33,967 bases of DNA from a virus. The notes under the pieces are model-generated. The model did not search any database, was not told the DNA's origin, and saw nothing but the letters and a program-made list of their open reading frames with translations. Shown here in pieces: positions 3,340 through 33,116 of the stretch. Within the stretch, counting starts at the first letter, position 1, and each line of letters begins with the position of its first letter. The translations under genes and the position numbers were made by a program. The stretch spans positions 1-33,967 of IMG/VR virus record IMGVR_UViG_3300045135_001378; one strand, 5' to 3'.

Positions 3340-3556
3340 CATCGGGGTCTTCAGTATCCTCACCATAAGTAACTAAATTTTTAGTTTTTTCATCAAACCT
3401 CAACTGCCACTCAGCCACCATTTTTACCAATATGTTACCAAAATTTTTAAATGACGTAGAGTCTAGAAATAAATTTTTCTTTTCTTGTATAATCTTTATC
3501 TCTTTTTCTGAAAATTCTATGTCACAACTTCCATCAGCATATTGTTTAAACCTCAT
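3323..3556 (-). CDS. Small hypothetical protein, 77 residues
   Basis: A small soluble protein (MRFKQYADGSCDIEFSEKEI) with a short beta-hairpin-like start, a helical middle (KNFGNILVKMVAEWQLRF) and an acidic end (GEDTEDPDVNK). The sequence AAAGAGG lies five bases before the ATG. It overlaps the end of the upstream oxygenase gene by eleven bases and its own 3' end carries the promoter for the tail gene. No family recognised; small proteins of this kind often sit at the ends of accessory cassettes in marine phages. Function unknown. Confidence 0.65.
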   Translation of the reverse strand: MRFKQYADGSCDIEFSEKEIKIIQEKKNLFLDSTSFKNFGNILVKMVAEWQLRFDEKTKNLVTYGEDTEDPDVNKAP

Positions 3557-4196
3557 AAAAACCTCTTTCCTTTAATTGTTGTATTTTATTGTCTGATAAA
3601 GTTAAAAAACAATTTATAGAATATCTACTACCTTTTGTAATTTTTTCTGTGCCGTGTATCCATATTGGTTCTGCTGGGAAAAACATTGTATCACCTTTAC
3701 CTAAGACAACTTTATGTCTGCCATCAAAAAATCTAAATTCACCACCCTCGTAATCATCATTTAAATTTATCGTTAATGAACCTCTAATTTGTTTAGTAAT
3801 ATCTGAGTGATCTTTTATTTGAGTTCCTTCTTCGTATTTTAATATTCTTATATTATCAGTTTGACTAATATGCATATCATTAAAAGTAGGACAAATTTCT
3901 TTTTGAATATACTCAACATAAGTTTTTAAACAATAAGATACAATCTCTACAGCTTTAGCAAAAACAGGTTGAAGTATTTCATTTTTGATATGATGTTCTG
4001 ATAAACTTAAACACTTATAGTTATCCCACACAATTTTTTTTTCATCATACTTATAGCTTTGTTCCTTAGTTTGTAAATTTGGAAATTTATCAAACGCCCA
4101 CTTAAAGCGTTCACACCAATAACTCGAAACAAATTTTTTCTGTATGTGTATTAAATCTGTAATTTTAAAATTATATTCGTTCGGGGAGTTTTGCAT
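3546..4196 (-). CDS. 2-oxoglutarate/Fe(II)-dependent oxygenase (prolyl 4-hydroxylase-like)
   Basis: With the start at 4196 the protein has 216 residues. The double-stranded beta-helix motifs are clear: H130-x-D132 (IKDHSD), a GGEFRFFDG strand turn at 151-159, the distal His181 (WIHGTEKI) and Arg191 (GSRYSIN) for 2-oxoglutarate. The family oxidises C-H bonds with O2, Fe(II) and 2-oxoglutarate; the substrate here is unknown. I chose ATG 4196 because GGAAG stands eight bases before it; upstream ATGs at 4229 and 4259 lack a ribosome-binding site and would deepen the overlap with the preceding gene (26 bases as annotated). It is the last of three consecutive oxygenase genes. Close relatives act on proteins, but small-molecule substrates are possible. 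Confidence 0.85.
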   Translation of the reverse strand: MQNSPNEYNFKITDLIHIQKKFVSSYWCERFKWAFDKFPNLQTKEQSYKYDEKKIVWDNYKCLSLSEHHIKNEILQPVFAKAVEIVSYCLKTYVEYIQKEICPTFNDMHISQTDNIRILKYEEGTQIKDHSDITKQIRGSLTINLNDDYEGGEFRFFDGRHKVVLGKGDTMFFPAEPIWIHGTEKITKGSRYSINCFLTLSDNKIQQLKERGFYEV

Positions 4197-4743
4197 TTTC
4201 TTTACTTCCAGTTGTATCTCTTTGATCATTCTTGTAATCTTTGTAAGGACCGTTAGCATCTACATAATGTAAAAAAATTTGAGAATGCCAATCACCTTGA
4301 AATTCTTCTCGCCAATGTTCAACCTCACACCCGAGATATAAAACAGCATCACCTGGTTGCATCTCTAATGCTGTGCCTTCTATGTAAATAGGCCAAGGTG
4401 TTTTATCTGAACCAACCATCACTGTGCATGATATCTCACAAGAGGGTCTATCTTTATGTTTTTTTAGATCTGCATATTTTGTATACATTCTCCAAAAACT
4501 GTAAGTTGGGTTTAATTTAAGATTAGTTTCTTCTTCCATTTTTTTTCTTTTGCTTATTAACAATGCATCAGTTGCTGGGTTGCCATAGTTCATTGTGTCC
4601 ATAGTGATTGATTGTTGGGTATCAAATGACGAATCGTTTCTTTGATGAAATAAAATTGTAAAATGTTTTAATAATTCTGTTTCTTCTTTTGCTAAAAAGT
4701 TTTTTACAAGTTTGTATTTTAAATCTCTTATACTGCCCAACAT
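4171..4743 (-). CDS. 2-oxoglutarate/Fe(II)-dependent oxygenase family protein
   Basis: The 190-residue protein carries H96-x-D98 within LKKHKDRPSCEIS, a hydrophobic core strand (TVMVGSDKTPWPIYIEG), a turn LEMQPGDAVLYLG typical of the region before the distal ligand, and His143 in EVEHWREEF. The 2-oxoglutarate Arg expected about ten residues later is not obvious: the region reads DWHSQIFLHYV, with Gln155, so cosubstrate binding may use Arg145 or differ. It is the middle of three overlapping oxygenase genes (16 bases shared with the upstream gene, 26 with the downstream). The protein differs from its neighbours in sequence, so this is not a recent duplication. Substrate unknown. Confidence 0.8.
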   Translation of the reverse strand: MLGSIRDLKYKLVKNFLAKEETELLKHFTILFHQRNDSSFDTQQSITMDTMNYGNPATDALLISKRKKMEEETNLKLNPTYSFWRMYTKYADLKKHKDRPSCEISCTVMVGSDKTPWPIYIEGTALEMQPGDAVLYLGCEVEHWREEFQGDWHSQIFLHYVDANGPYKDYKNDQRDTTGSKENAKLPERI

Positions 4744-5303
4744 ACTGCTGAATACCTTATACCTTTCTCTACTGGTGTTACTCTATGAGGAAACATAAAA
4801 TTTGAAGGCCAAACAATCATTCTATTTTTCTTAGGTTCAATTTCTAAACTTTCATCTTTTGCAGGAAAAGCAAATTGTAATTTACCACCTTCGTAACCAT
4901 CATTTAAATAAAATATACAACTTATTTTTCTGTTTAAATAAAGTCCATGATCTACATGCCAAGTGTAGTGACCTCCAGGTTCATATTTTAATATTTGTGA
5001 ACCTTCAAGTCTTGATATTGTTTGCGAAGGTAATTTATTTTCTTCGATATATGAACCAATACATTCTTTAAAAATTTTATTAAAAACATGAGCCCAATGA
5101 ATTTCAGTCATTGATTGAGAATCGAATTGCAAATGTTTCACAAGTGTGTTTCTAGTTTCTTTTTCAATAAATCCTTTATCTTTTTTTTCATTCAATATTT
5201 CAGCATATTCAAAATTTAAGTCTTTGACCCATTTTAAAATAACTTCTAAAGTTTCATTGTTAATAGTGTTATCTATTATTTTTATACAGTCTTTTATTTC
5301 CAT
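4728..5303 (-). CDS. PKHD-type 2-oxoglutarate/Fe(II) hydroxylase
   Basis: A complete 191-residue PKHD/prolyl-4-hydroxylase-type domain. ILKYEPGGHYTWHVDHG gives His116 and Asp118; CIFYLNDGYEGGKLQF is the hallmark strand-turn-strand; FPHRV gives distal His173 and KGIRYSAVCW gives Arg183. Residues 1-100 are the usual N-terminal helical half. It is the first of three tandem oxygenases and overlaps the upstream DUF6065-like gene by ten bases. No strong ribosome-binding sequence precedes the ATG, consistent with coupling. The family hydroxylates protein side chains or small molecules; I cannot tell the substrate from sequence. Confidence 0.9.
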   Translation of the reverse strand: MEIKDCIKIIDNTINNETLEVILKWVKDLNFEYAEILNEKKDKGFIEKETRNTLVKHLQFDSQSMTEIHWAHVFNKIFKECIGSYIEENKLPSQTISRLEGSQILKYEPGGHYTWHVDHGLYLNRKISCIFYLNDGYEGGKLQFAFPAKDESLEIEPKKNRMIVWPSNFMFPHRVTPVEKGIRYSAVCWAV

Positions 5304-13853: not shown

Positions 13854-14330
13854 CTAGACTAAGTCTACAGCTTTTCCAATCACAGGTTTATATTTAGTTT
13901 TACCCTCTGATTTATAAGCATGTAAAAATTGTTTCCTAGGTTGATCTGGAGTATAGCTGCAGTGTATCCAACCACTGTTCGGCTCACCAGGAGTATAGAA
14001 TTCCAATATCAATTGGTCATAATCTAGGTTCTTGTTAATCCAATCAGCTAACTCAGCGTTATCTGTTCCCATCACTTCGAAGTCTGCGGCCTCGGCCTTG
14101 GCATGCTGTGAATTTACAGAGCTACCTATTTTTAAACACAACTGTTCTGAACGGAATCCGCTGGTCACCTTGACCCTGCCGAAGTGGTCGCGCACGGGCT
14201 GTAAAATATTTTCACAAAGTGCTTTTAGTTTTTCTATTTGTCCTGAGTTAGGATTGTTATTGATGTCTAATCTAACAGCAGTGTCAGATTTAATTAATTC
14301 TTGTAAACTAAAATTTCTTGAAAGGTTCAT
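13854..14330 (-). CDS. Endolysin, peptidase M15 family (D-Ala-D-Ala carboxypeptidase/endopeptidase type)
   Basis: The 158-residue single-domain enzyme shows VTSGFRS (Arg60), SQHAKAEAADFEV with zinc ligands His76 and Asp83, LILEFY with Glu110 as catalytic base candidate, and GWIHCSY with His123. This is the complete M15A zinc peptidase set, cutting peptide bonds in peptidoglycan stems. There is no signal peptide, so release needs a holin. AGGAG is six bases from the ATG. The coding bases around 14080-14205 are far more GC-rich than the surroundings (27 of 40 in 14161-14200), suggesting segmental acquisition. The gene overlaps the upstream oxygenase by four bases. Confidence 0.9.
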   Translation of the reverse strand: MNLSRNFSLQELIKSDTAVRLDINNNPNSGQIEKLKALCENILQPVRDHFGRVKVTSGFRSEQLCLKIGSSVNSQHAKAEAADFEVMGTDNAELADWINKNLDYDQLILEFYTPGEPNSGWIHCSYTPDQPRKQFLHAYKSEGKTKYKPVIGKAVDLV

Positions 14331-14854
14331 ATGTATCTCCTATCTTCGTAAGCGTTAAAGCTTAACGCATATTTTGGAGTGTTGCTAGTGTTCCTGTTCG
14401 TATAATGAAACAGAAAACCGCTAAATATAGCAAAAGCTCCAGGTTCTGGTTTTATTTCTTCTCCAATTTGAGGAAAAAATAATTTCTGATCACTACTGTT
14501 TAAGTAAATAACTCCACCAAAAACAGATGGGAAATGTTTATGTTTTTTTGTATAACCACCCTTTGGTTCAATTAAACCCCAAACTTCTTCAATCATATAA
14601 CTCTCATAAAACAAATTATTTTGTTCTATGTAATCTTGTATAGGAAAAAAAGGAGTCCAAAACTTTTCATCTTTAGCAAAAAAATGCCAATTAGTCATTC
14701 CTCCCATGACATTAGTTTTTCCATTTAAATTATCATTACTCAGAACTTGTTCATCTATTTTTTTTTTAAAATATTCAGTATCTATATCAAGAACACCAGT
14801 CATATAGACATAATCCTGTAGTATTTGTTTTTGGACTATTTTATTTAATTTCAT
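14327..14854 (-). CDS. 2OG-Fe(II) oxygenase with H-x-H motif
   Basis: The 175-residue protein has YTKKHKHFPSVFGGVIYLNS, giving His105-x-His107 in place of the commoner H-x-D, then LFFPQIGEEIKPEPGAFAIF, the distal His150 in FLFHYTNRN and KYALSFN with Lys161 in the usual Arg position. I associate H-x-H with the family Pfam calls 2OG-FeII_Oxy_5 (name from memory). Fe(II) and 2-oxoglutarate binding are inferred. It lies between the M15 lysin and a conserved hypothetical gene, overlapping both by four to fourteen bases. GGAAG precedes the ATG. It belongs to a different subfamily from the 3.5-5.3 kb oxygenases. Substrate unknown. Confidence 0.8.
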   Translation of the reverse strand: MKLNKIVQKQILQDYVYMTGVLDIDTEYFKKKIDEQVLSNDNLNGKTNVMGGMTNWHFFAKDEKFWTPFFPIQDYIEQNNLFYESYMIEEVWGLIEPKGGYTKKHKHFPSVFGGVIYLNSSDQKLFFPQIGEEIKPEPGAFAIFSGFLFHYTNRNTSNTPKYALSFNAYEDRRYI

Positions 14855-15497
14855 TCTGATTTTTTTCTTCCATATTATAAAACATTTTATCAGAATCTTC
14901 AGTTACAAATTTAGAATTTTCTGCATCCCAATACGTAGTTTGGACTTTATAATCTGGCCAACTGTTATCAGTAGTGTAACTATTAACATGCCACAAAATA
15001 CGATTATTAGGCTGAGCTGCATAATTACCGTTAGCAAGAGCCAATATATGCGCACACTTATGTTCTTGAGGAATTTCAGAGTGCTCCACATCCAAGATAT
15101 TAGTATCTGGATGAGCCCAATCAACAGTGAATAAATACTGTCCATGATAAAACTTTTTATCAAGGCCCAAAAATTTGCCATCTAAACCAGCCAACCAATC
15201 AAAGCGATGAACACTAGGCCAATAACTAAAACAATTCCACAATTCCAACTCGTGCGTCTGCATATCCGGCACATTGGTTCTATCATACGATTTTTGGAAA
15301 AACGCTGAGATAGGCAAACGCCAAAAGCATGCACCATTAGGTAACATGATATTAAATAAGATCGCACGTCCTGAAATACTTGTAAGACCGAAGACAACAC
15401 AGTCTTCACTCTCTCCATGATGTTTTTTAAGGTCATACAAAAACTCCTTACGTATTTTACAATAAATAGGTGGAATATTTGCGTTCAGATAAGCCAT
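14841..15497 (-). CDS. Conserved marine-phage hypothetical protein, 218 residues
   Basis: The protein starts MAYLNANIPPIYCKIRKEFL and is rich in Trp, Tyr, His and Asp throughout (ELWNCFSYWPSVHRFDWLAG, HGQYLFTVDWAHPDTN, ALANGNYAAQPNNRILWHVN). I recall proteins with the same start in many marine phage genomes, always without assigned function. There is no transmembrane segment. The many aromatic residues with Asn/Asp suggest a beta-rich binding or structural fold. No clear ribosome-binding site precedes the ATG, five bases after the stop of the upstream gene, so coupling is likely. It overlaps the H-x-H oxygenase gene by fourteen bases. Confidence 0.68.
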   Translation of the reverse strand: MAYLNANIPPIYCKIRKEFLYDLKKHHGESEDCVVFGLTSISGRAILFNIMLPNGACFWRLPISAFFQKSYDRTNVPDMQTHELELWNCFSYWPSVHRFDWLAGLDGKFLGLDKKFYHGQYLFTVDWAHPDTNILDVEHSEIPQEHKCAHILALANGNYAAQPNNRILWHVNSYTTDNSWPDYKVQTTYWDAENSKFVTEDSDKMFYNMEEKNQNEIK

Positions 15498-15502
15498 TCA
15501 TA

Positions 15503-15835
15503 TTATTGTGCTAAGGGGTTAGAACTTTTTAATTTAAGCTCATCTAATTGATTTTGTAAAAGTTGTATTGTTTTTTCATTTACTAAAATCTTTGTATGTC
15601 CATGTTCATGATCGTGTTCTTCTATCTCATGTGTGTGTGAAGTATCTGCATTCCTCAATGCATCAACTTTTTCTTCAAGCACAGCTATTTGTGCTGAGTA
15701 ATCTACAGATTGTTGATTTTCTAATGCATCTAATTTAGTGGTAATTTCACCATATTTAACAAAACCACCACCAATTGCAGCTATTACACCTAATAAGGCA
15801 GCTACTCCAGCTAATTGATTTTTTATTTTATCCAT
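15503..15835 (-). CDS. Membrane-anchored coiled-coil protein with His-rich segment
   Basis: Residues 6-27 (NQLAGVAALLGVIAAIGGGF) form one N-terminal membrane helix with no cleavage site. Two helical coiled-coil stretches follow (about 32-62 and 84-103, QLLQNQLDELKLK), separated by a polar segment HTHEIEEHDHEHGHT with six His at 67, 69, 74, 76, 78 and 80 and several Glu/Asp. That segment could bind Zn or Ni; this is inference. GAGG is nine bases before the ATG, and the gene overlaps the end of the upstream exported protein by eight bases. Position between exported proteins and the M15 lysin makes a spanin-like or envelope role possible. Confidence 0.7.
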   Translation of the reverse strand: MDKIKNQLAGVAALLGVIAAIGGGFVKYGEITTKLDALENQQSVDYSAQIAVLEEKVDALRNADTSHTHEIEEHDHEHGHTKILVNEKTIQLLQNQLDELKLKSSNPLAQ

Positions 15836-17195
15836 TTTGTAATACCTCGATTTCTTTTAACAGATTTTGCCTTTCTTGTAAAAGGTTGTCAAGTTGTTGT
15901 TTTTTTATAAAAATAGGATCATTTTGTTTGTATGATATCAAATCTTTCGTGTAAATTATTCTATCATCTTGTATTTGTGCTTGATCTTCGTATATAATTT
16001 TAGGTTCATAGAAAGGAATATTATATGCATCAAGAAGATTTCCTGATGACATTACTTTTAGTTTTACTAGGTTTTTTAACATTAAGTTTTTATCTATTTG
16101 CTTAACTTCTTCATCAATTTTTTCTAAAATTCCTTCAAGTCTTGCTGTTTTAGTTTCTTTCTGTTGTACGTTTTTTTCTTGTTTCGTATCACTTTCATTT
16201 TCAGCATTGGAAGTTTCAGTAGTTTCGCTATTGGATTCTTCTTTTTCATTTTCCTCCTCTTTAACAGCTTCTGTTAACATTTCAATTGGCTCCTCTTCTT
16301 TTTCTTCTTCAGTGAATTCTTCTATTTCTTCCATGATAGGTTCTTCTTCAAACTTTTCTTCTTCTTTCATCGCTACCATAACAGGCTCTTTCATTTTTAT
16401 TTCTTCTTCCATTTTTATTTCTTCTTCAAAGAAGAATTCTTCTACAATTTTATCTATTTCCTCAAACTCATCACCAATGTCTTCAAATACATCATCTATT
16501 TCATCTTTAATTGCAGGAGGTAGTGGTGAATAAAATATATCTAATAATATTGCTTTTAATTCTGCACCCAATAAATTTGGACCTACAGCATCGGTGCTAT
16601 TAGGGTCGTTACCATCTATACCAGTCCACTCCCAGTCCCATTTTCTTGCACCCTCACCAGTATAGGTAATTGTGTCTGTGTATGTGTGAGTATTGCTGTA
16701 ATATCCTGAATCTTTATTTCTGTTTTGTGTAACTGTTGCAAGTTCCTGATCGTTTTCATCTAATATAGTAACTGTTGTAGAATAACTATCTTGTCCAGAT
16801 GTTGCTTGACCGCATTGATAAGCAGATCCTGTCCACTCACAGTTTTGTACTTCTGTTTTTGATGTGAGTGTGACTCCACCGTCTAAACTGTCCGCTGTAG
16901 TTGTGAACTGTCCACCAGTTTCCTTTTCTGTTGTAATATTTAATAAACTACCACTAGCTGAAACTGTACCAGTTCCTTGTGCTTCTAACTCACCATATTG
17001 TGAAAAATCAGTAATACCACTATCTAAAGTCCATCCAGAAGAGCTATTAATTCCATCAATATTTCCAGATTGATTTTGTGTTGATGTCGTTCCTGTTCCA
17101 GCGTTTGGTAATAAGTTACCGCTTGTCGCTGTTTCTGCTGAAGAAGTTGTATGGATTAACATCATCAGCAAAATTGTTGATACGATTGATCGCAT
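15828..17195 (-). CDS. Exported Glu-rich protein with C-terminal coiled coil
   Basis: The 455-residue protein has a signal peptide (MRSIVSTILLMMLI followed by HTTSSA, cleavage probably before ETATSG). Residues about 20-210 are a Ser/Thr/Gly-rich beta region containing an isolated Cys pair (NCEWTGSAYQC). Residues 220-345 are extraordinarily acidic, with long Glu runs broken by Lys and Met. The last hundred residues form a coiled coil (IFIKKQQLDNLLQERQ). I chose ATG 17195 because AGGAG stands six bases before it; a TTG two codons upstream abuts that site. It follows a second exported gene. I do not recognise the family; an envelope or lysis-related role is only inferred from the export signal. 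Confidence 0.72.
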   Translation of the reverse strand: MRSIVSTILLMMLIHTTSSAETATSGNLLPNAGTGTTSTQNQSGNIDGINSSSGWTLDSGITDFSQYGELEAQGTGTVSASGSLLNITTEKETGGQFTTTADSLDGGVTLTSKTEVQNCEWTGSAYQCGQATSGQDSYSTTVTILDENDQELATVTQNRNKDSGYYSNTHTYTDTITYTGEGARKWDWEWTGIDGNDPNSTDAVGPNLLGAELKAILLDIFYSPLPPAIKDEIDDVFEDIGDEFEEIDKIVEEFFFEEEIKMEEEIKMKEPVMVAMKEEEKFEEEPIMEEIEEFTEEEKEEEPIEMLTEAVKEEENEKEESNSETTETSNAENESDTKQEKNVQQKETKTARLEGILEKIDEEVKQIDKNLMLKNLVKLKVMSSGNLLDAYNIPFYEPKIIYEDQAQIQDDRIIYTKDLISYKQNDPIFIKKQQLDNLLQERQNLLKEIEVLQNG

Positions 17196-17228
17196 AGCCA
17201 ACTCCTATTATCATTATAATTAACCAAA

Positions 17229-17882
17229 TCATTTAGGCGACTCCCAATTTACAGGTTTCTTTTTAGGAACAATTGTTTTATCCATTTGTTCCATTTCTTT
17301 TGTAATTAGTTTTTGTTCTTCCTCGTTTTTCTTCTCTATAATTTTAAGATTGTTTACATACTGATCATAATCAGGTCTTAACTTGTCATATTTTTTCCAA
17401 GCAGCTTTTGCTTCTTTTCCAATTTTACCTTCAAACGGACATGGGGTTCCCGCCTGTTCCATTGCAAAAAAAACTCTTTCGTCTTGACAAAGTAGAGCAA
17501 CTGCTGCAACTTTCATTCCTAATGTATTAAGTTCTCTTGATAATTTTATTCTTTCACAATTTTTGTCTCTAAAAGACTTGCCACCGGATACACCAATACC
17601 AAATGTCTGCACTCCCGCGCTCGCGCCCGCGAGACAAACATCAGAACCAGAATTAGTTACTCCTGGAGCAGATGCTGTTGGAGGAGCAGATTTTATATTT
17701 GAGGTGCTATTGTTAGTTGTAGTGGTGTTATTTGAGCTACCGCTCTGGTAGGTATTGGTAGCAGATGACGTGTAACCCCCAGTTATTGAGGTATTTGACC
17801 CACTAGTATTATTCTGGGTTGTATTAGCAAATAATGCAGTTGTAAAAAAACTAAATAATGTTAATAATATTAGTGTCCTCAT
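17229..17882 (-). CDS. Exported Ser/Thr/Asn-rich protein with conserved Cys core
   Basis: A signal peptide (MRTLILLTLFSFFTTALFAN, cleavage about residue 19) is followed by a low-complexity Thr/Ser/Asn region (20-70), then a core SDVCLAGASAGVQTFGIGVS with Cys residues recurring in NCERIKLSREL, VALLCQDERVF and TPCPFEG. The C-terminal third is Lys/Glu-rich and helical. I remember this Cys core as a hypothetical protein in marine phages. The start codon is buried in a 13-base-pair hairpin while AGGA lies in its loop, so translation may be regulated by folding. A short GC-rich patch at 17608-17636 encodes the ASAGVQ part. Function unknown. Confidence 0.72.
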   Translation of the reverse strand: MRTLILLTLFSFFTTALFANTTQNNTSGSNTSITGGYTSSATNTYQSGSSNNTTTTNNSTSNIKSAPPTASAPGVTNSGSDVCLAGASAGVQTFGIGVSGGKSFRDKNCERIKLSRELNTLGMKVAAVALLCQDERVFFAMEQAGTPCPFEGKIGKEAKAAWKKYDKLRPDYDQYVNNLKIIEKKNEEEQKLITKEMEQMDKTIVPKKKPVNWESPK

Positions 17883-17952: not shown

Positions 17953-18048
17953 TTAGCCTTTAGGTAATGAACTTTTTAACCAGTCCATTAATTTATTCCA
18001 AGGCCAACAAATAATTTTCCAAATCCATTTGATAATTTTTTTTATCAT
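17953..18048 (-). CDS. Nested 31-residue cationic amphipathic peptide
   Basis: An in-frame internal ATG begins MIKKIIKWIWKIICWPW and ends DWLKSSLPKG, 31 residues with five Trp, seven Lys and hydrophobic Ile in helical periodicity. It looks membrane-active, like a cationic antimicrobial or small holin-type peptide. The start is supported by AAGGAGG, one of the strongest ribosome-binding sites in the window, five bases upstream (18060-18054). No terminator or separate promoter is seen, so it would be made from the same mRNA as the Cys-rich protein. A role in lysis or membrane depolarisation is an inference from composition alone. Confidence 0.5.
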   Translation of the reverse strand: MIKKIIKWIWKIICWPWNKLMDWLKSSLPKG

Positions 18049-18186
18049 AGAATCCTCCTTGATTATTTTGACGATTTCGTGAACACATTCAACACAACTA
18101 CATGTGTCGCAGGTTTGTTTACTTACAAAGTAACCTTGACCAATACAGTGACAAACGTGCCCACATTCTAAACATGTTTTCCTCAT
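17953..18186 (-). CDS. Cys-rich protein fused to an amphipathic cationic tail
   Basis: The 77-residue protein has eight Cys at 5, 8, 12, 14, 26, 29, 31 and 34 in CLECGHVCHC and TCDTCSCVEC, with His at 10, 13 and 36: a zinc-ribbon or metallothionein-like knot. Residues 47-77 are quite different, a Lys/Trp-rich amphipathic helix. A strong ribosome-binding site inside the gene precedes Met47, so the tail can also be made alone (see the nested entry). Start follows the upstream stop directly (TAAATG) with only a distant GGTGG. The product may be one fused protein or two. Zinc binding is inferred. Confidence 0.65.
   Translation of the reverse strand: MRKTCLECGHVCHCIGQGYFVSKQTCDTCSCVECVHEIVKIIKEDSMIKKIIKWIWKIICWPWNKLMDWLKSSLPKG
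18054..18060 (-). promoter_or_regulatory. Internal ribosome-binding site AAGGAGG
   Basis: AAGGAGG followed by ATTCT and an in-frame ATG, located inside the Cys-rich gene and encoding its Lys-Glu-Asp codons. It decides the nested start at 18048. Confidence 0.65.
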
Positions 18187-18501
18187 TTAACATTTCCACC
18201 TTCTTCTTGCTTGCCTTAATCTTGAATTAGGGTCTTTTGCAGCTTTAGGAAATTGTTTCATTTGCCCTGCTGATCTTGCGCAAAATGATTTACGCCTTTT
18301 AGCAGCTTTTGATCCTGGTTTAACTTTACCAGTCACAGCTGTTTTTAATTTAGATCCTGGATTGTCTCTTCTATACCTCGCAACCCCTGCAGCAGTCATA
18401 CCTGCTCCAGATTTTGTAGATCTAAAATATTTTTTAGTCTTAGGTGGTTGTATGTCTCCACCTCTTCTAAAACCTATAACTTCTAGTCCAGTTTTATTCA
18501 T
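18187..18501 (-). CDS. Small Arg/Lys-rich protein (DUF6321-like)
   Basis: The 104-residue protein is strongly basic. Its hallmark is AGMTAAGVARYRRDNPGSKL, then KRRKSFCARSAGQMK and the end SRLRQARRRWKC. I recall this as DUF6321 in marine phages (name unverified). The basic charge and two Cys near the C-terminus suggest nucleic-acid contact, perhaps as a packaged virion protein. It overlaps the upstream gene stop by one base (TAATG) and its own stop abuts the Cys-rich gene start. A homologous CAR motif occurs at the start of the protein encoded at 24482-24925. Confidence 0.7.
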   Translation of the reverse strand: MNKTGLEVIGFRRGGDIQPPKTKKYFRSTKSGAGMTAAGVARYRRDNPGSKLKTAVTGKVKPGSKAAKRRKSFCARSAGQMKQFPKAAKDPNSRLRQARRRWKC

Positions 18502-22883: not shown

Positions 22884-23067
22884 CTTCTAACTCCTGTTTA
22901 TCAAGCAGGTCCTTTAGTTCCTGTTGCAAATCCTCAAGGGATTTGATTTGCCCTCTAACATATTGTAGTTGATCCATTGTGTCAACACTATATATAGCGG
23001 TGTCCTTGAGTTGAGCTAGTCTTTTTTTCAAATGTCTCTGCACTAATGATATTGTTTCAATATCCAT
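22846..23067 (-). CDS. Small coiled-coil protein, 73 residues
   Basis: A short, mostly helical protein: VQRHLKKRLAQLKDTAIYSV, MDQLQYVRGQIKSLEDLQQE and LKDLLDKQELEDDN show heptad-like Leu/Ile spacing. GAGGAG precedes the ATG. It overlaps both the upstream oxygenase (eleven bases) and the co-chaperonin. It could be a chaperone or assembly factor, but no family is recognised. Confidence 0.68.
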   Translation of the reverse strand: MDIETISLVQRHLKKRLAQLKDTAIYSVDTMDQLQYVRGQIKSLEDLQQELKDLLDKQELEDDNVHGKTETDW

Positions 23068-23590
23068 ATAACTCCTCCAATAGTGGAAAATAATTTATAT
23101 TAATGTTCATTCTGCAATGCGCATCAGTAGAAGTAGTTCCTCGATGTTTGATATTAGAACTAAAAATTATTAATCTATTTTTACTGCTTTCTATTTTTTC
23201 TCCAGTTTCAAATTCAGTAAATCCATTATTGGAATTTACATAATAAATTGCAGTTAAATTATCTTTGTAATCAATATGAAAACCATGTGTAATTATATTT
23301 TCTGTCATTGGTATACAATTTGCTTTTACTCGTACTAAAGATTTAATTTTCATTTTTTCTATTAATGGTTCAAGTGTAGGCCAAGCGTTTGACATAATTT
23401 TGTGTTTAAAATAAAAAGTATGTACAAATTGAAACTGGTGGTTAGGTTTTTCTTGTAGATGGTCAAATTCTGGATTTATTGAAGAAGAATAATACCATGG
23501 AAAAAAAGGATGTGTAAATTCTTGTTCTATTTTATCTGCTTCTTCTATACTTAGAAAATTATCTATTATTTTTACGTTTTCTGAAGACAA
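23057..23590 (-). CDS. 2OG-Fe(II) oxygenase, paralogue of the terminase-adjacent oxygenase
   Basis: The 177-residue protein contains FPWYYSSS (30-36), FVHTFYFKHK, the iron motif GFHIDYKD (His105, Asp107), YYVNSNNGFTEFETGEK, the distal IKHRGTTSTD (His149) and HCRMNININY (Arg160). The same series of motifs occurs in the protein encoded at 32461-32946, so the two are diverged paralogues. TTG is used as start codon, with GGGAG ten bases upstream, and the gene overlaps the methyltransferase gene by nineteen bases. It is unlike the PKHD types at 3.5-5.3 kb. Substrate unknown; pairing with a methyltransferase suggests protein or metabolite modification. Confidence 0.82.
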   Translation of the reverse strand: MSSENVKIIDNFLSIEEADKIEQEFTHPFFPWYYSSSINPEFDHLQEKPNHQFQFVHTFYFKHKIMSNAWPTLEPLIEKMKIKSLVRVKANCIPMTENIITHGFHIDYKDNLTAIYYVNSNNGFTEFETGEKIESSKNRLIIFSSNIKHRGTTSTDAHCRMNININYFPLLEELYGY

Positions 23591-28267: not shown

Positions 28268-30190
28268 TTAATTATACCTTCTTGTTTTAAATATATCTAC
28301 CACAAGACCACCAAGAGCTTTATAGGTTTTTTGTGTGTTTCTCATTAAAGGGGACACCTTAATAGCAAATGCATCAAAATACAACCTTGGATCATTTTCT
28401 AAAATTAACTTATAGCCTTTTTTTGGATCTTTAATAGCATCATCGTGATAAGTATTTGTAAGTTTTTTTCCTTTCATTACGGTTTCTGGGTATCTGAAAG
28501 AATCGGTTTCAACTTTTTTATAAGGAAGTTTTGGATCTGATAATGACAATTTTTGAGAACCTGCTGAAGAATTATAAAACCTTGCAACTCTTTTCATAAT
28601 ATTTGGCATTACTGCTGTACCTTTGTTACCAATACCTTTACCAGATGCATATCCGTAAAATCTTTCATTACCCGCTTTATATCCTTGACGGAAACTTAAC
28701 TTGTCAAACGGGGCAACGGCAACGTAATCAACATTCTCTCTTGCAGCTTTTTGTAAAAGATATTTTAAAGCATGATCTCCATATGCATCTGCTTCAACAA
28801 AAGGATAATAATTTTTAGAATCTCCATATACACCTCTGTTTTTTGTCATCAACTGAACTTTTTTATTTATGTCTGATAAAGTTTTACTCAAATAAGTTAC
28901 ACGTCCTGAATCTTGTGTATTTATTGCTTTGTTTAAATCATCCATTAAACTTGATCTTTGTGTTAATAACATCTTCATTTCTAAATCAGCTTGAAAAGGA
29001 TTAAATCTTTTTTCTCCAGCTAACTGTTGTGCTTTTGATAAACTTTTTGCAACACCTTGGTTTACATCAGATTGTATTTCATTAATTAAAAATACTTTTT
29101 TACCTTCTGGAGTAAATCTTGTATCATACCTAATGTGATAAATATTATTTGTTTCACTTGGAAGAGCTTCACTAAAATGACCTCCCTTGTTAAAGGGTTG
29201 TGAGTTTGTTGGTATTGCATCATCTAATACCATAATAGTTTCTCTATAATCTTTACCACCTTGTAATGTGTAGTTTGTTTCTTTTCCATAATAAGTTTTA
29301 GATTTTTGCATTGGTGCAATAGATTCACTTATCTCTCCTAAAACTTTATTCATAAGTTTTCTATCACCAGGATCCACACCAGGAAGATTACGAGCTCTTT
29401 TTAATTCATCGCTAAATTGACCAAAAGCACCTTTTCCTACATCATTTTTTAAAGCTCTTAAATTATAAATTGCTTCTCCCAACTGTCCCGTTACATCATT
29501 TGCAGAGTCGCCTGGAAGAGTTGAGTATTTTTTAGATAAAGAATTTAATGTGTCATCAGCGTTTTTCATAACACTATCAAATTTTTCAGTTACACCTTTT
29601 GGCATACCTAGTTCTATAGGTCTTAATCTATTTACAGGATTTAATTTAATCATTGCACCAATTTCATTAGCGTCTAGTTTTAATCCAAACTTTTTAGCAG
29701 CAAATAATAAACCACCTGTTAAATCTCCTGCTTCATTGAATATAGCTAAGTTAGAATCAAATAATTCTTCAGAAGAAACATTAACTTCTTTACCTGCGAA
29801 AGGGCCTCGGTCATACTTAAATCTTTTTTGATCTCTAACAGTTTTTTGTGCAGGCTTACCAAATATTTTAAAATTTACTTTTCTTGTTGATGTTAAATGA
29901 TCTAACCATTCGTCTGCTGTATATTTACCAGCACCTTTTCTCATTACCCAATCATAAGTAGAGGATCCAAAAGCAGGGGCAACATCATCACCCATGTGAA
30001 GTTCTTTAGTTGCTTTTCTTACAATAGGTGGATTTCGTATTTCACGTACAGCTAACTCTTGTCCAGTTTCCTGTGATGGTTTTGGAGTGTAAGTTATCTG
30101 TTTGGTTTGTTGTCCGGTAGCCGGTGTTGCTGAAGGCTTTTTGGCCTTGAGGAACTCCTTACCAAGTTGAAGTAATCCTTTAAGGGACAC
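28268..30190 (-). CDS. Large protein with polyvalent-protein-type EIQSD domain
   Basis: The 640-residue protein starts at GTG with AGGAGG just upstream. Residues about 60-290 are helical. From about 300 comes a domain with YRETIMVLDD (315-324), HF (338-339), IYHIRYDTRF (350-359) and VFLINEIQSDVNQGVA (366-381); later YLLQKAARENVDYVAVAPFD at 474-493. I recall this E-I-Q-S-D module from large phage polyvalent proteins described by Iyer and colleagues; its biochemical activity is unknown to me. It is encoded between terminase and portal, where packaged or ejected proteins often lie, so delivery into the host is plausible but inferred. Confidence 0.7.
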   Translation of the reverse strand: MSLKGLLQLGKEFLKAKKPSATPATGQQTKQITYTPKPSQETGQELAVREIRNPPIVRKATKELHMGDDVAPAFGSSTYDWVMRKGAGKYTADEWLDHLTSTRKVNFKIFGKPAQKTVRDQKRFKYDRGPFAGKEVNVSSEELFDSNLAIFNEAGDLTGGLLFAAKKFGLKLDANEIGAMIKLNPVNRLRPIELGMPKGVTEKFDSVMKNADDTLNSLSKKYSTLPGDSANDVTGQLGEAIYNLRALKNDVGKGAFGQFSDELKRARNLPGVDPGDRKLMNKVLGEISESIAPMQKSKTYYGKETNYTLQGGKDYRETIMVLDDAIPTNSQPFNKGGHFSEALPSETNNIYHIRYDTRFTPEGKKVFLINEIQSDVNQGVAKSLSKAQQLAGEKRFNPFQADLEMKMLLTQRSSLMDDLNKAINTQDSGRVTYLSKTLSDINKKVQLMTKNRGVYGDSKNYYPFVEADAYGDHALKYLLQKAARENVDYVAVAPFDKLSFRQGYKAGNERFYGYASGKGIGNKGTAVMPNIMKRVARFYNSSAGSQKLSLSDPKLPYKKVETDSFRYPETVMKGKKLTNTYHDDAIKDPKKGYKLILENDPRLYFDAFAIKVSPLMRNTQKTYKALGGLVVDIFKTRRYN

Positions 30191-30986: not shown

Positions 30987-32468
30987 CTAATAATATTTGT
31001 ACTCTTTTTCTAATTTCATTGGTGGGTCATCCCAATCATCAGAATAGGTACTTACAAATCCACCTTGTCTATATCTTAACACAGCTTGGGTCATACTGTC
31101 TACATAGTCATCATATTGACCATTAGGAAAAGCAGCACATTCCTCAATTACTTCTTGAGCAAAGTGCTCATCTAATGGAGCATATACCATACCCGATTCA
31201 AACACAGGGGCACAGCTATTTATACGTGTATGCTTATCTCTACCCCTTGCTGGAACATAATCAATAACAGGTATACCTGCACGTCTTAACTCATGTATCA
31301 AGGGTTGTCCTGAAGCTTTAGCCTCTACAATTACGGTTTCCGGTTCCCAGTATTGATATTGCTCTAAAGCAACATTTTTTAAATCGGGAAAGTCATAACG
31401 ACCCTTTTGTGCATCGAGAAGTATTATACATTTTTCATAACCTTCTACAGGTTCAAATATACCCCAGGTGGTGATTGCAGAATAATCAGCAGTTTCTTTT
31501 TTAGAAAATGCAGTATCATAACTTTGTATGACATGGAGCAATCTAGGGAGGTAATCCTTATCCCAGTCTTGCCACCATTCACGTTTTATGATTGCACCTT
31601 CTTCTGAAGTTGGGTCCTGCATGTATTGTGCGTTCCAGTTCTTCGTTGAGATAGATGCTTTGACAGAGTCTAAATCTTCTTTACTCCAATACTCAGGCCA
31701 TACAGGTTTATCGTTTGGTAGAATTGCAGGGAACTCAATTACTTTCCACTTGTCCGCTTTTGGTTCTGATTGAGCCTTCACTAAACGACCAGTGAGATCG
31801 TCTACCGCCCACCGGGTCATGACTACAAGAATACGGCCACCGGGTTGTAAACGTTGTCTTGGCCCAGAGCTATACCACTCGTAAGCACGATCCATGGCTG
31901 AATCAGACATTGAGTCTTGTTCAGTGTGTGGGTCATCGATAATAAGTAAATCCGCCCCTCGTCCTGTAATAGAACCGCCAACTCCCGCTGCAAAGTATTC
32001 TCCCCCGTGATTAGTCTCCCAACGGCCTTTTGCCTTACTATCTTCTCTGAGTGTAACATTTCCGAAGATCTGTTTATACTCCTTGGTGTTCATTAAGTTT
32101 CGAACCTTACTACCGAACCTTGATGCTAGTTCAGCATTGTGTGATACCTGCATTATTTTTTTCTTTGGATACTTTCCAATATACCAAGCAGGAAACAAAT
32201 AAGATGCAAATTCAGATTTAGTATGTCTAGGAGGCATATTAATGATGAGCCTCTTTGCATCCCCGTCAGCTATATCTTGAAATGCTTCAGCGATAATTTG
32301 GTGGTGCCCATATTTCTTTGGGTCCTTTGTTTTACGATAAATAAAATCTTGCCATACAGCTTCTGCAAAAATCAAAAAATTATCTTGGCATAACTTGATC
32401 CACTGTAATTGCTTCTGGAGTATTAAATCTTTTAATTCTTCTTCTGAAAGTTGATCTGTATTAAACAT
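30987..32468 (-). CDS. terL: Terminase large subunit (ATPase and nuclease)
   Basis: The 493-residue DNA-packaging motor has an ATPase domain with the Walker A-like MPPRHTKS (78-85), Walker B LLIIDDP (174-180), motif III RILVVMTRWAVDD, and a nuclease domain with QSYDTAF (Asp318), VEAKASGQP (Glu382) and QYDDYVDSM (Asp453 and Asp457). It cuts concatemers and pumps DNA through the portal. It overlaps the preceding oxygenase gene by eight bases. No small terminase subunit was recognised beside it, although one of the unassigned genes to the right could fill that role. Confidence 0.95.
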   Translation of the reverse strand: MFNTDQLSEEELKDLILQKQLQWIKLCQDNFLIFAEAVWQDFIYRKTKDPKKYGHHQIIAEAFQDIADGDAKRLIINMPPRHTKSEFASYLFPAWYIGKYPKKKIMQVSHNAELASRFGSKVRNLMNTKEYKQIFGNVTLREDSKAKGRWETNHGGEYFAAGVGGSITGRGADLLIIDDPHTEQDSMSDSAMDRAYEWYSSGPRQRLQPGGRILVVMTRWAVDDLTGRLVKAQSEPKADKWKVIEFPAILPNDKPVWPEYWSKEDLDSVKASISTKNWNAQYMQDPTSEEGAIIKREWWQDWDKDYLPRLLHVIQSYDTAFSKKETADYSAITTWGIFEPVEGYEKCIILLDAQKGRYDFPDLKNVALEQYQYWEPETVIVEAKASGQPLIHELRRAGIPVIDYVPARGRDKHTRINSCAPVFESGMVYAPLDEHFAQEVIEECAAFPNGQYDDYVDSMTQAVLRYRQGGFVSTYSDDWDDPPMKLEKEYKYY

Positions 32469-32946
32469 AATTTATATTTACATTTATTCTTAAATTCTCA
32501 TCAGTTTGCGTGGTGCTTCTATGGTCTTCTAATCCATTAAACAACAGCATTCTATTCTCTACTGAATAAACCTTCTCTCCTGAACCTTTAAACTGTGTAT
32601 AACCATTATTACTATTTACACTAAACAAGGCTACTTTATGTGGAGAGTCTCTGTCAACATGGTAATCATGAGTTACAGGGTCCTTTACATATGTATAACA
32701 ATTAGCACGTACATGTAATATATGTTGAAAATTTAATTGTCCTAATATTGGATGTATAAGATCAAACCAATCACTTAACTGTTTACCATCTCTATAAAAG
32801 TTGTGAACGAAATAAAAACTTTTATTTTTTTCATTCTTAAATGCAACGTTATCACTATAGTACCAGGGAAAATCTTTATCAAAGAATTTATTTTTTAATA
32901 AATTCATTGTGTTTGGGTCCTTTATAAAATTATCTATAAACTTCAT
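32461..32946 (-). CDS. 2OG-Fe(II) oxygenase at the head of the late operon
   Basis: With ATG 32946 the protein is 161 residues: FPWYYSDN (26-33), YFVHNFYRDGK, VRANCYTYVKD, iron ligands His96 and Asp98 in HDYHVDRD, then NSNNGYTQFKGSGEK, His142 in EDHRSTTQTDE and Arg153 in LRINVNINY. It is paralogous to the oxygenase at 23057-23590. A GTG at 33108 would add 54 residues, but that stretch overlaps hairpins and the promoter candidate and aligns with nothing in the paralogue, so I reject it. The gene is the first of the terminase operon. Confidence 0.82.
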   Translation of the reverse strand: MKFIDNFIKDPNTMNLLKNKFFDKDFPWYYSDNVAFKNEKNKSFYFVHNFYRDGKQLSDWFDLIHPILGQLNFQHILHVRANCYTYVKDPVTHDYHVDRDSPHKVALFSVNSNNGYTQFKGSGEKVYSVENRMLLFNGLEDHRSTTQTDENLRINVNINYV

Positions 32947-32961
32947 ACCGTTTGGGACCCT

Positions 32962-32989
32962 AGTATATTTATGTATATTGCTTTGTAAA
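32962..32989 (-). promoter_or_regulatory. Late-operon promoter candidate
   Basis: Minus-strand TTTACA (32989-32984), 16-base spacer and TATACT (32967-32962) lie 15 bases before ATG 32946. It is preceded by small hairpins and a transcript-boundary inverted repeat, and would drive the oxygenase, terminase and downstream genes. Confidence 0.45.
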
Positions 32990-33089
32990 CCTCTTTGCAC
33001 AGCAAAGCCCACGCCTGAACGCGAGTTGTGAAGCGTAGTTGCTTCGTTAAGGTCGTTGGGATTTAAGAGCCTTCTATACGATAGATACA
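32990..33089 (-). other. Non-coding leader with small hairpins
   Basis: GC-richer than its surroundings. It holds CTTTGC-TGT-GCAAAG (32993-33007) and GAAGC-(6)-GCTTC (33030-33045). No recognisable tRNA, promoter or conserved frame other than the promoter candidate next to it. It lies between small right-hand genes and the late operon. Confidence 0.45.
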
Positions 33090-33116
33090 CCAATGGCGTG
33101 ATATACACGCCATTGG
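33090..33116 (-). terminator. Perfect 11-bp inverted repeat after small gene, possible terminator
   Basis: CCAATGGCGTG and CACGCCATTGG are exact reverse complements around a five-base ATATA loop, ten bases after the stop of the 87-residue gene. The stem is strong but the following bases (TGTATCTATC) form only a weak U-tract, so it may be an RNase or stability hairpin or a protein site rather than an intrinsic terminator. Confidence 0.5.

Follow-up and report, generated by a model that had tools for sequence, protein, structure and literature searches.

The DNA analyzed here (the window) is a 33,967-base virus record whose nearest match is the Pelagibacter phage HTVC023P (83% identity over 16% of the query). 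Its minus strand displays, in order, a DUF6321 gene, the nested gene that is our subject, two genes for probable exported proteins, one for a one-span coiled-coil protein, a phrog_3704 gene, another gene and an M15 endolysin (Table 1), which bears out the original prediction of a region that holds exported and lysis genes. The nested gene is an intact 77-codon ORF running from 18186 to 17953 (window protein P0001, MRKTCLECGHVCHCIGQGYFVSKQTCDTCSCVECVHEIVKIIKEDSMIKKIIKWIWKIICWPWNKLMDWLKSSLPKG), the ATG of which directly abuts the TAA stop of the DUF6321 gene (TAA then ATG). Eight cysteines had been predicted for its upstream part and are indeed found there, at residues 5, 8, 12, 14, 26, 29, 31 and 34, with all of them in the first 34 residues. 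Codon 47 (M47, 18048-18046) is an in-frame internal ATG, with AAGGAGG at 18060-18054 and a five-base spacer (ATTCT); this configuration had been called with no strand given, and we confirm it at 18060-18046 on the minus strand. The short ORF that opens at M47 has its frame and stop codon in common with the long ORF and encodes the 31-aa peptide MIKKIIKWIWKIICWPWNKLMDWLKSSLPKG, which features seven lysines, one aspartate and a net charge of +6. Of its earlier description as a 31-residue peptide rich in Lys, Trp and Ile with a basic tail, the length and lysine content stand, whereas the tail (LKSSLPKG) is only mildly basic.

Table 1. Features of the nested gene and its neighborhood, in window coordinates.
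Feature	Position	Strand	Evidence or remark
DUF6321 protein, immediately upstream	18187..18501	-	PF19846, E 7e-13
Long ORF, 77 aa, Cys-rich module and amphipathic tail	17953..18186	-	In-frame relatives L001-L024; purifying selection on the relatives' Cys module
Cys-rich module, probably metal-binding, C5 to C34, CxxC-x3-CxC ... CxxCxCxxC	18085..18174	-	Alignment with relatives
Internal Shine-Dalgarno AAGGAGG with a 5-base spacer to the internal ATG	18054..18060	-	Relatives retain the GGAG core at synonymous sites
Nested short ORF, 31 aa, cationic Trp/Ile-rich peptide	17953..18048	-	Standalone homologues L034, L042 begin at the same Met
Probable exported protein, immediately downstream	17229..17882	-	phrog_20531; HTVC023P gp45 homologue
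Probable exported protein	15828..17201	-	HTVC023P gp46 position
One membrane span and coiled coil, inner-membrane-spanin-like topology	15503..15835	-	No significant family match
phrog_3704 protein; directly precedes the peptide slot in most relatives	14841..15497	-	E 1e-78
M15 peptidase endolysin	13854..14330	-	PF08291, E 6.5e-15; phrog_894 endolysin, E 1.5e-41

Members of the phrog_3704 family bear conflicting names: GenBank phage records call them phosphoribosylaminoimidazole synthetase (PurM), whereas the matching RefSeq records call them ferredoxin. Elsewhere in the window, the products of 3546-4259, 4171-4743, 4728-5303, 14327-14854, 23057-23590 and 32461-33108 have, by eye, the look of 2OG-Fe(II) oxygenases, families of which are reported to be expanded in such phages (PMC9599517).

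We scored Shine-Dalgarno (SD) strength as the duplex energy with the anti-SD and compared 144 in-frame internal ATGs and the starts of 19 window genes. The site before 18048 scores -11.2 kcal/mol, against -6.3 for the best of the 144 internal ATGs of these genes, and it also exceeds all 19 gene starts tested (best -11.1), so that the strong internal ribosome-binding site claimed from inspection is borne out; the long ORF's own start at 18186 scores -7.6 in the same measure. In the window the internal site outranks the long-ORF start, as it does in 10 of the 13 relatives compared; in one more the two are equal. Conservation of the internal ATG and its SD had been proposed as a check, and every examined junction of the relatives that has an internal ATG keeps both, across several unrelated upstream modules. 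Each of these junctions has a GGAG-type site, the core of which is constant while the amino acids encoded there vary (KEDS, EEDN, GEN, TEEN, GEDN, VEEN). When the seven upstream codons of each junction are re-drawn with the synonymous codon usage of the window (GAG 23% of Glu, AAG 18% of Lys, ACG 6% of Thr, GGG 5% of Gly), the SD at synonymous positions exceeds expectation with a combined Fisher P of about 5e-6, taking one junction for each of eight head types as independent, an independence that is only approximate. Seven of the eight junctions individually reach 0.01-0.06; that of L157 is not significant because its amino acids alone largely dictate the SD site, and the L001, L003 and L144 junctions display no individual excess over the codon-usage expectation.

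A search with the 77-aa protein recovered 24 viral contigs, the tails of which mostly share M[VI]KKIIKWIW..xSWPFKK..xWL, whereas the heads belong to several unrelated Cys/His types (CGHRCHC; CHPCHC; EHDCHC; GMGF...CPHCGH...HTH; EHKHR; CGHRHRG). A second search, with a DNA pattern lying within the peptide only and hence neutral to frame and to upstream sequence, recovered 23 viral contigs: 21 in-frame fusions to a Cys/His head and two standalone peptides. In the latter (L034, L042), the peptide directly follows phrog_3704 and has the homologous Met start, its own GGAG site and no Cys module; therefore, the internal ATG serves as an independent start in some genomes. These observations leave a chance origin, namely the Lys/Ile-rich end of an ORF with an accidental SD in an AT-rich genome, with a probability of practically nil: AT-rich DNA does favor Lys and Ile codons, but the conservation of peptide, frame, ATG and SD in more than 20 contigs, together with the standalone copies, refutes it.

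The upstream module is likewise under constraint. Comparison of synonymous and non-synonymous differences in close pairs of relatives gives a head-region pN/pS of about 0.06 to 0.32, indicating purifying selection and, therefore, translation of the head. The frame is kept at all eight head types (binomial P 0.003, counting two non-fused arrangements against, HTVC023P out of frame and L143 separate). Accordingly, judged from sequence comparison, we take the ATG at 18048 to be a genuine start, homologous to those of the standalone peptide genes, and the Cys-rich module upstream to be translated in frame with the peptide. One reading frame thus very probably gives two products, a Cys-rich long form and the 31-aa peptide; this two-product claim of the original prediction is well supported by comparison, with the junction ATG and SD kept and standalone peptides in existence.

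A single fused protein, in which the helix is the membrane anchor of a metal-binding Cys protein and the internal SD-ATG is left over from the fusion of two genes, would account for the frame being kept in 21 of 21 fused loci. It would also accommodate the fused tails that have no internal ATG (L081/HTVC027P gp12 and L140), the existence of which means that the short form is not obligatory, and the reverse-order fusions, where one ORF encodes a basic amphipathic peptide followed by a CxxC or Cys-rich module (L094, L106, L107, L132, L135, L145, L161). Against it, lineages that have diverged to a pS of up to about 0.3 still preserve the SD at synonymous sites, the SD is stronger than the long-ORF start in most genomes compared, and standalone peptide genes are common; we therefore consider this alternative unlikely. 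As modules join at SD-ATG boundaries, the SD could nevertheless be partly a fossil of cassette shuffling. Across the relatives, all three arrangements, long only, short only and both, occur.

Other fusions display different tails. At L009:4992-5282, the CGHRCHC head continues in frame into a different tail, the hydrophobic segment of which ends in a lipobox-like LLSC; this tail resembles that of a membrane lipoprotein and replaces the cationic peptide. On the minus strand of L157, a Cys-rich head runs in frame through GGGAGGAAAAATG into a single-span membrane peptide, the same nested layout with another kind of tail. A host origin was considered and rejected, one scan of genome contigs having found no relative.

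Neither the Cys module nor the 77-aa protein has a significant match in Pfam, PHROGs, NCBIfam or PDB sequence searches, and tblastn at E<=10 found no homologue of the protein in annotated phages. The label of a zinc-ribbon-like pattern did not hold up, as the window protein has no zinc-ribbon Pfam match in profile searches; the GMGF/HTH module of a relative matches zinc ribbons below threshold only (E 0.017). Identity with the Lar restriction-alleviation proteins was rejected since the window protein has no such match, and HTVC027P gp12 attains 18 bits against a 28.6-bit cut-off (PF14354, E 0.003). Bacterial metallothioneins were also rejected: the CxC/CxxC spacing of the Cys-only relatives is similar, but there is no Pfam match. 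Beside the slot described below, we repeatedly noted small ORFs rich in Cys that is spaced as CxCxxCxC (e.g., VCTCDKCECK; L073, L097, L104, L107, L134, L135 and others); their spacing is metallothionein-like and they have no Pfam match. No peptidoglycan-hydrolase domain was detected in the long form by Pfam or PHROG matches of the window protein. The AlphaFold model of the 77-aa protein has a mean pLDDT of 65.7, with 53-60 over the Cys module, and places residues 36-73 in one helix with a mean of 84 (82 over residues 51-70).

The peptide itself is Trp-rich, with Lys interrupting its hydrophobic run, and its hydrophobic moment is marginally above that of its own shuffles (p 0.065). We scanned the slot anchored on the end of phrog_3704, blind to what follows, and obtained at least 106 distinct usable sites. 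Among the matches listed, standalone cationic amphipathic peptides (16-33 aa) occupy 37 of these 106 slots, single-span peptides of about 33-42 aa occupy 25, and the others hold head-plus-peptide fusions (8), reverse-order peptide-plus-Cys ORFs (6), Cys-only ORFs (3) or none of these (27), counts that come from manual sorting, the automatic classes being wrong for some sites (e.g., L069, L112, L097, L122, L147, L100, L146). The 36 machine-classified standalone peptides among the matches listed have a median charge of +5.5, Trp in 35, and, in 19, a hydrophobic moment above that of their own shuffles at p<0.05, where about 2 are expected. The usual order downstream is the slot, an optional small one-span gene, a one-span coiled-coil gene and the M15 endolysin. 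The last lies at most 4.3 kb downstream in at least 26 anchored loci; among the matches listed, 16 anchored loci whose sequence extends more than 4 kb downstream have no M15 gene there. The fused cassette occupies at least two genomic positions, since it follows the DUF6321 gene, not phrog_3704, in the window, L002, L004-L006 and relatives.

The composition, the helix prediction and the exchange with single-span peptides in the slot make it likely that the peptide acts on a membrane, a reading that fits the family composition and the position near the M15 endolysin. As genes for exported proteins come next in the window and some relatives, the peptide might instead serve these neighbors, e.g., as a small membrane part of a secretion or surface system. 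In most relatives, however, such genes are absent near the slot and the peptide is followed by one-span coiled-coil genes or the endolysin, which makes a role of this kind very unlikely. The two products might also belong to a non-lytic set of host-takeover or counter-defense micro-genes, the peptides binding host membrane proteins or nucleic acid. The micro-genes are small and turn over rapidly, as is typical of such sets, and sub-threshold Lar matches occur in relatives (that of HTVC027P gp12 and another to phrog_6422, E 0.015). The window protein, however, lacks a Lar match, and the envelope is the better fit to Trp-rich cationic helices that are exchanged with single-span peptides and neighbor one-span coiled-coil and endolysin genes, so that we also rate this non-lytic alternative as improbable.

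Several cultured pelagiphages can be compared at the slot. HTVC027P gp12, in the same type of slot after the phrog_3704 gene, combines a Cys/His head with a short WKKIISWLT tail as does the window gene, but has no internal ATG before the tail; one-span genes lie between it and the M15 gene gp17, and the main text of the published HTVC027P transcriptome makes no mention of gp12 (PMC12753301). In HTVC023P (MN698239.1), an unannotated 30-aa basic amphipathic ORF, MIDKYLYKFFDALDKFGSLIDNLFKRKKKK, is found at about 29,171-29,263, between gp44 and gp45, with a strong hydrophobic moment (p 0.005). This is the same slot after phrog_3704, but in contrast to the window the peptide frame is offset from the Cys-rich frame, whose end it overlaps and for which no start codon is evident. 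As neither frame has a clear SD, the HTVC023P copy may be decayed or dependent on other signals. The slot of phage 023Pt_psg01 holds a 34-aa single-span peptide, and HTVC033P has different basic micro-genes after its phrog_3704 homologue. With regard to spanins, one-span coiled-coil genes lie nearby, and the protein of one relative weakly matches the Rz-like spanin phrog_89 (E 0.035).

Taken together, we regard as moderately probable the complete reading of a nested two-product micro-gene of an HTVC023P-type pelagiphage, combining a membrane-active lysis peptide with a metal-binding long form. Ribosomes entering at 18186, probably coupled to the DUF6321 stop, would make the 77-aa long form, and those entering at 18048 via the strong SD would make the 31-aa peptide, probably the more abundant product. 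In this reading the peptide, a cationic Trp-rich helix, would insert into the host envelope. Drawn from the rapidly swapped micro-genes of the lysis region, it might act as a disruptin-like or holin-like envelope disruptor together with the nearby M15 endolysin. On the strength of the neighborhood and the disruptin analogy, we place such a role in lysis just short of an even chance; annotated-phage and profile searches found no homology to known lysis proteins. The long form would be the same helix tethered to a metal-binding head, and its most likely task would be to modulate the short form, in the manner of other phage lysis genes with dual starts; that it does regulate the short form, by analogy with dual-start holins and internal-start endolysins (PMC4777826, PMC9430671), we nonetheless consider doubtful. 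Distinctly unlikely is a metal-gated lysis switch, with a free lytic peptide and a long form whose metal- or thiol-binding head restrains the peptide until the membrane or redox state changes. Were it true, this switch would be one member of a hypervariable cassette whose heads and lytic peptides are traded among ocean phages.

A slot close to the endolysin in which 16-33 aa cationic or single-span peptides replace one another is a testable candidate for how these phages open SAR11 cells, and it bears on the question, posed in PMC12819732, of how phages with no identifiable spanins disrupt the outer membrane. Gene callers can overlook such micro-genes or the nested start.

Several known systems invite comparison. 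In dual-start holins of the lambda S107/S105 type, long and short membrane-acting lysis proteins are made from one frame, and the long form is often inhibitory. The starts of the lambda-type holins are, however, separated by a few codons and the product is a membrane-spanning protein, whereas in the window gene a 46-residue Cys-rich head lies between the starts and the tail is a predicted peripheral-type helix. Two-polypeptide endolysin genes (PMC9430671, PMC4777826, PMC7098653) likewise yield two polypeptides from one gene of the lysis region by way of an internal start, with a common frame and stop, and the window gene displays this defining arrangement of an in-frame start with its own SD (AAGGAGG-N5-ATG). 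Those endolysins are enzymes of phages with Gram-positive hosts, with a cell-wall-binding domain as the short form, while the window gene encodes a 31-aa cationic peptide as its short form and has no enzyme domain. Disruptins are described in PMC12819732 as short amphipathic antimicrobial-like peptides whose diversity hampers their prediction; as related there, their archetype from phage phiKT (Holt et al. 2022) is likewise a short phage cationic amphipathic helix that resembles antimicrobial peptides, is directed at a Gram-negative host and is encoded near an endolysin. The window peptide conforms to this type in its positive charge and modelled helix, with the family moments (19 of 36 among the matches listed) pointing the same way and its own being marginal. 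It differs in that no sequence relation was detected between the 77-aa protein and the phage collection at E<=10, a collection that may not include phiKT, in that peptides of the window type are often nested in frame within a Cys-rich ORF and swapped between genomes, and in that the lytic role here is a predicted one. The combination with exchangeable Cys/His heads at a micro-gene slot of abundant marine phages was not found in the literature or profile libraries searched; its two ingredients, nested in-frame starts in phage lysis genes and phage cationic peptides, are both already known.
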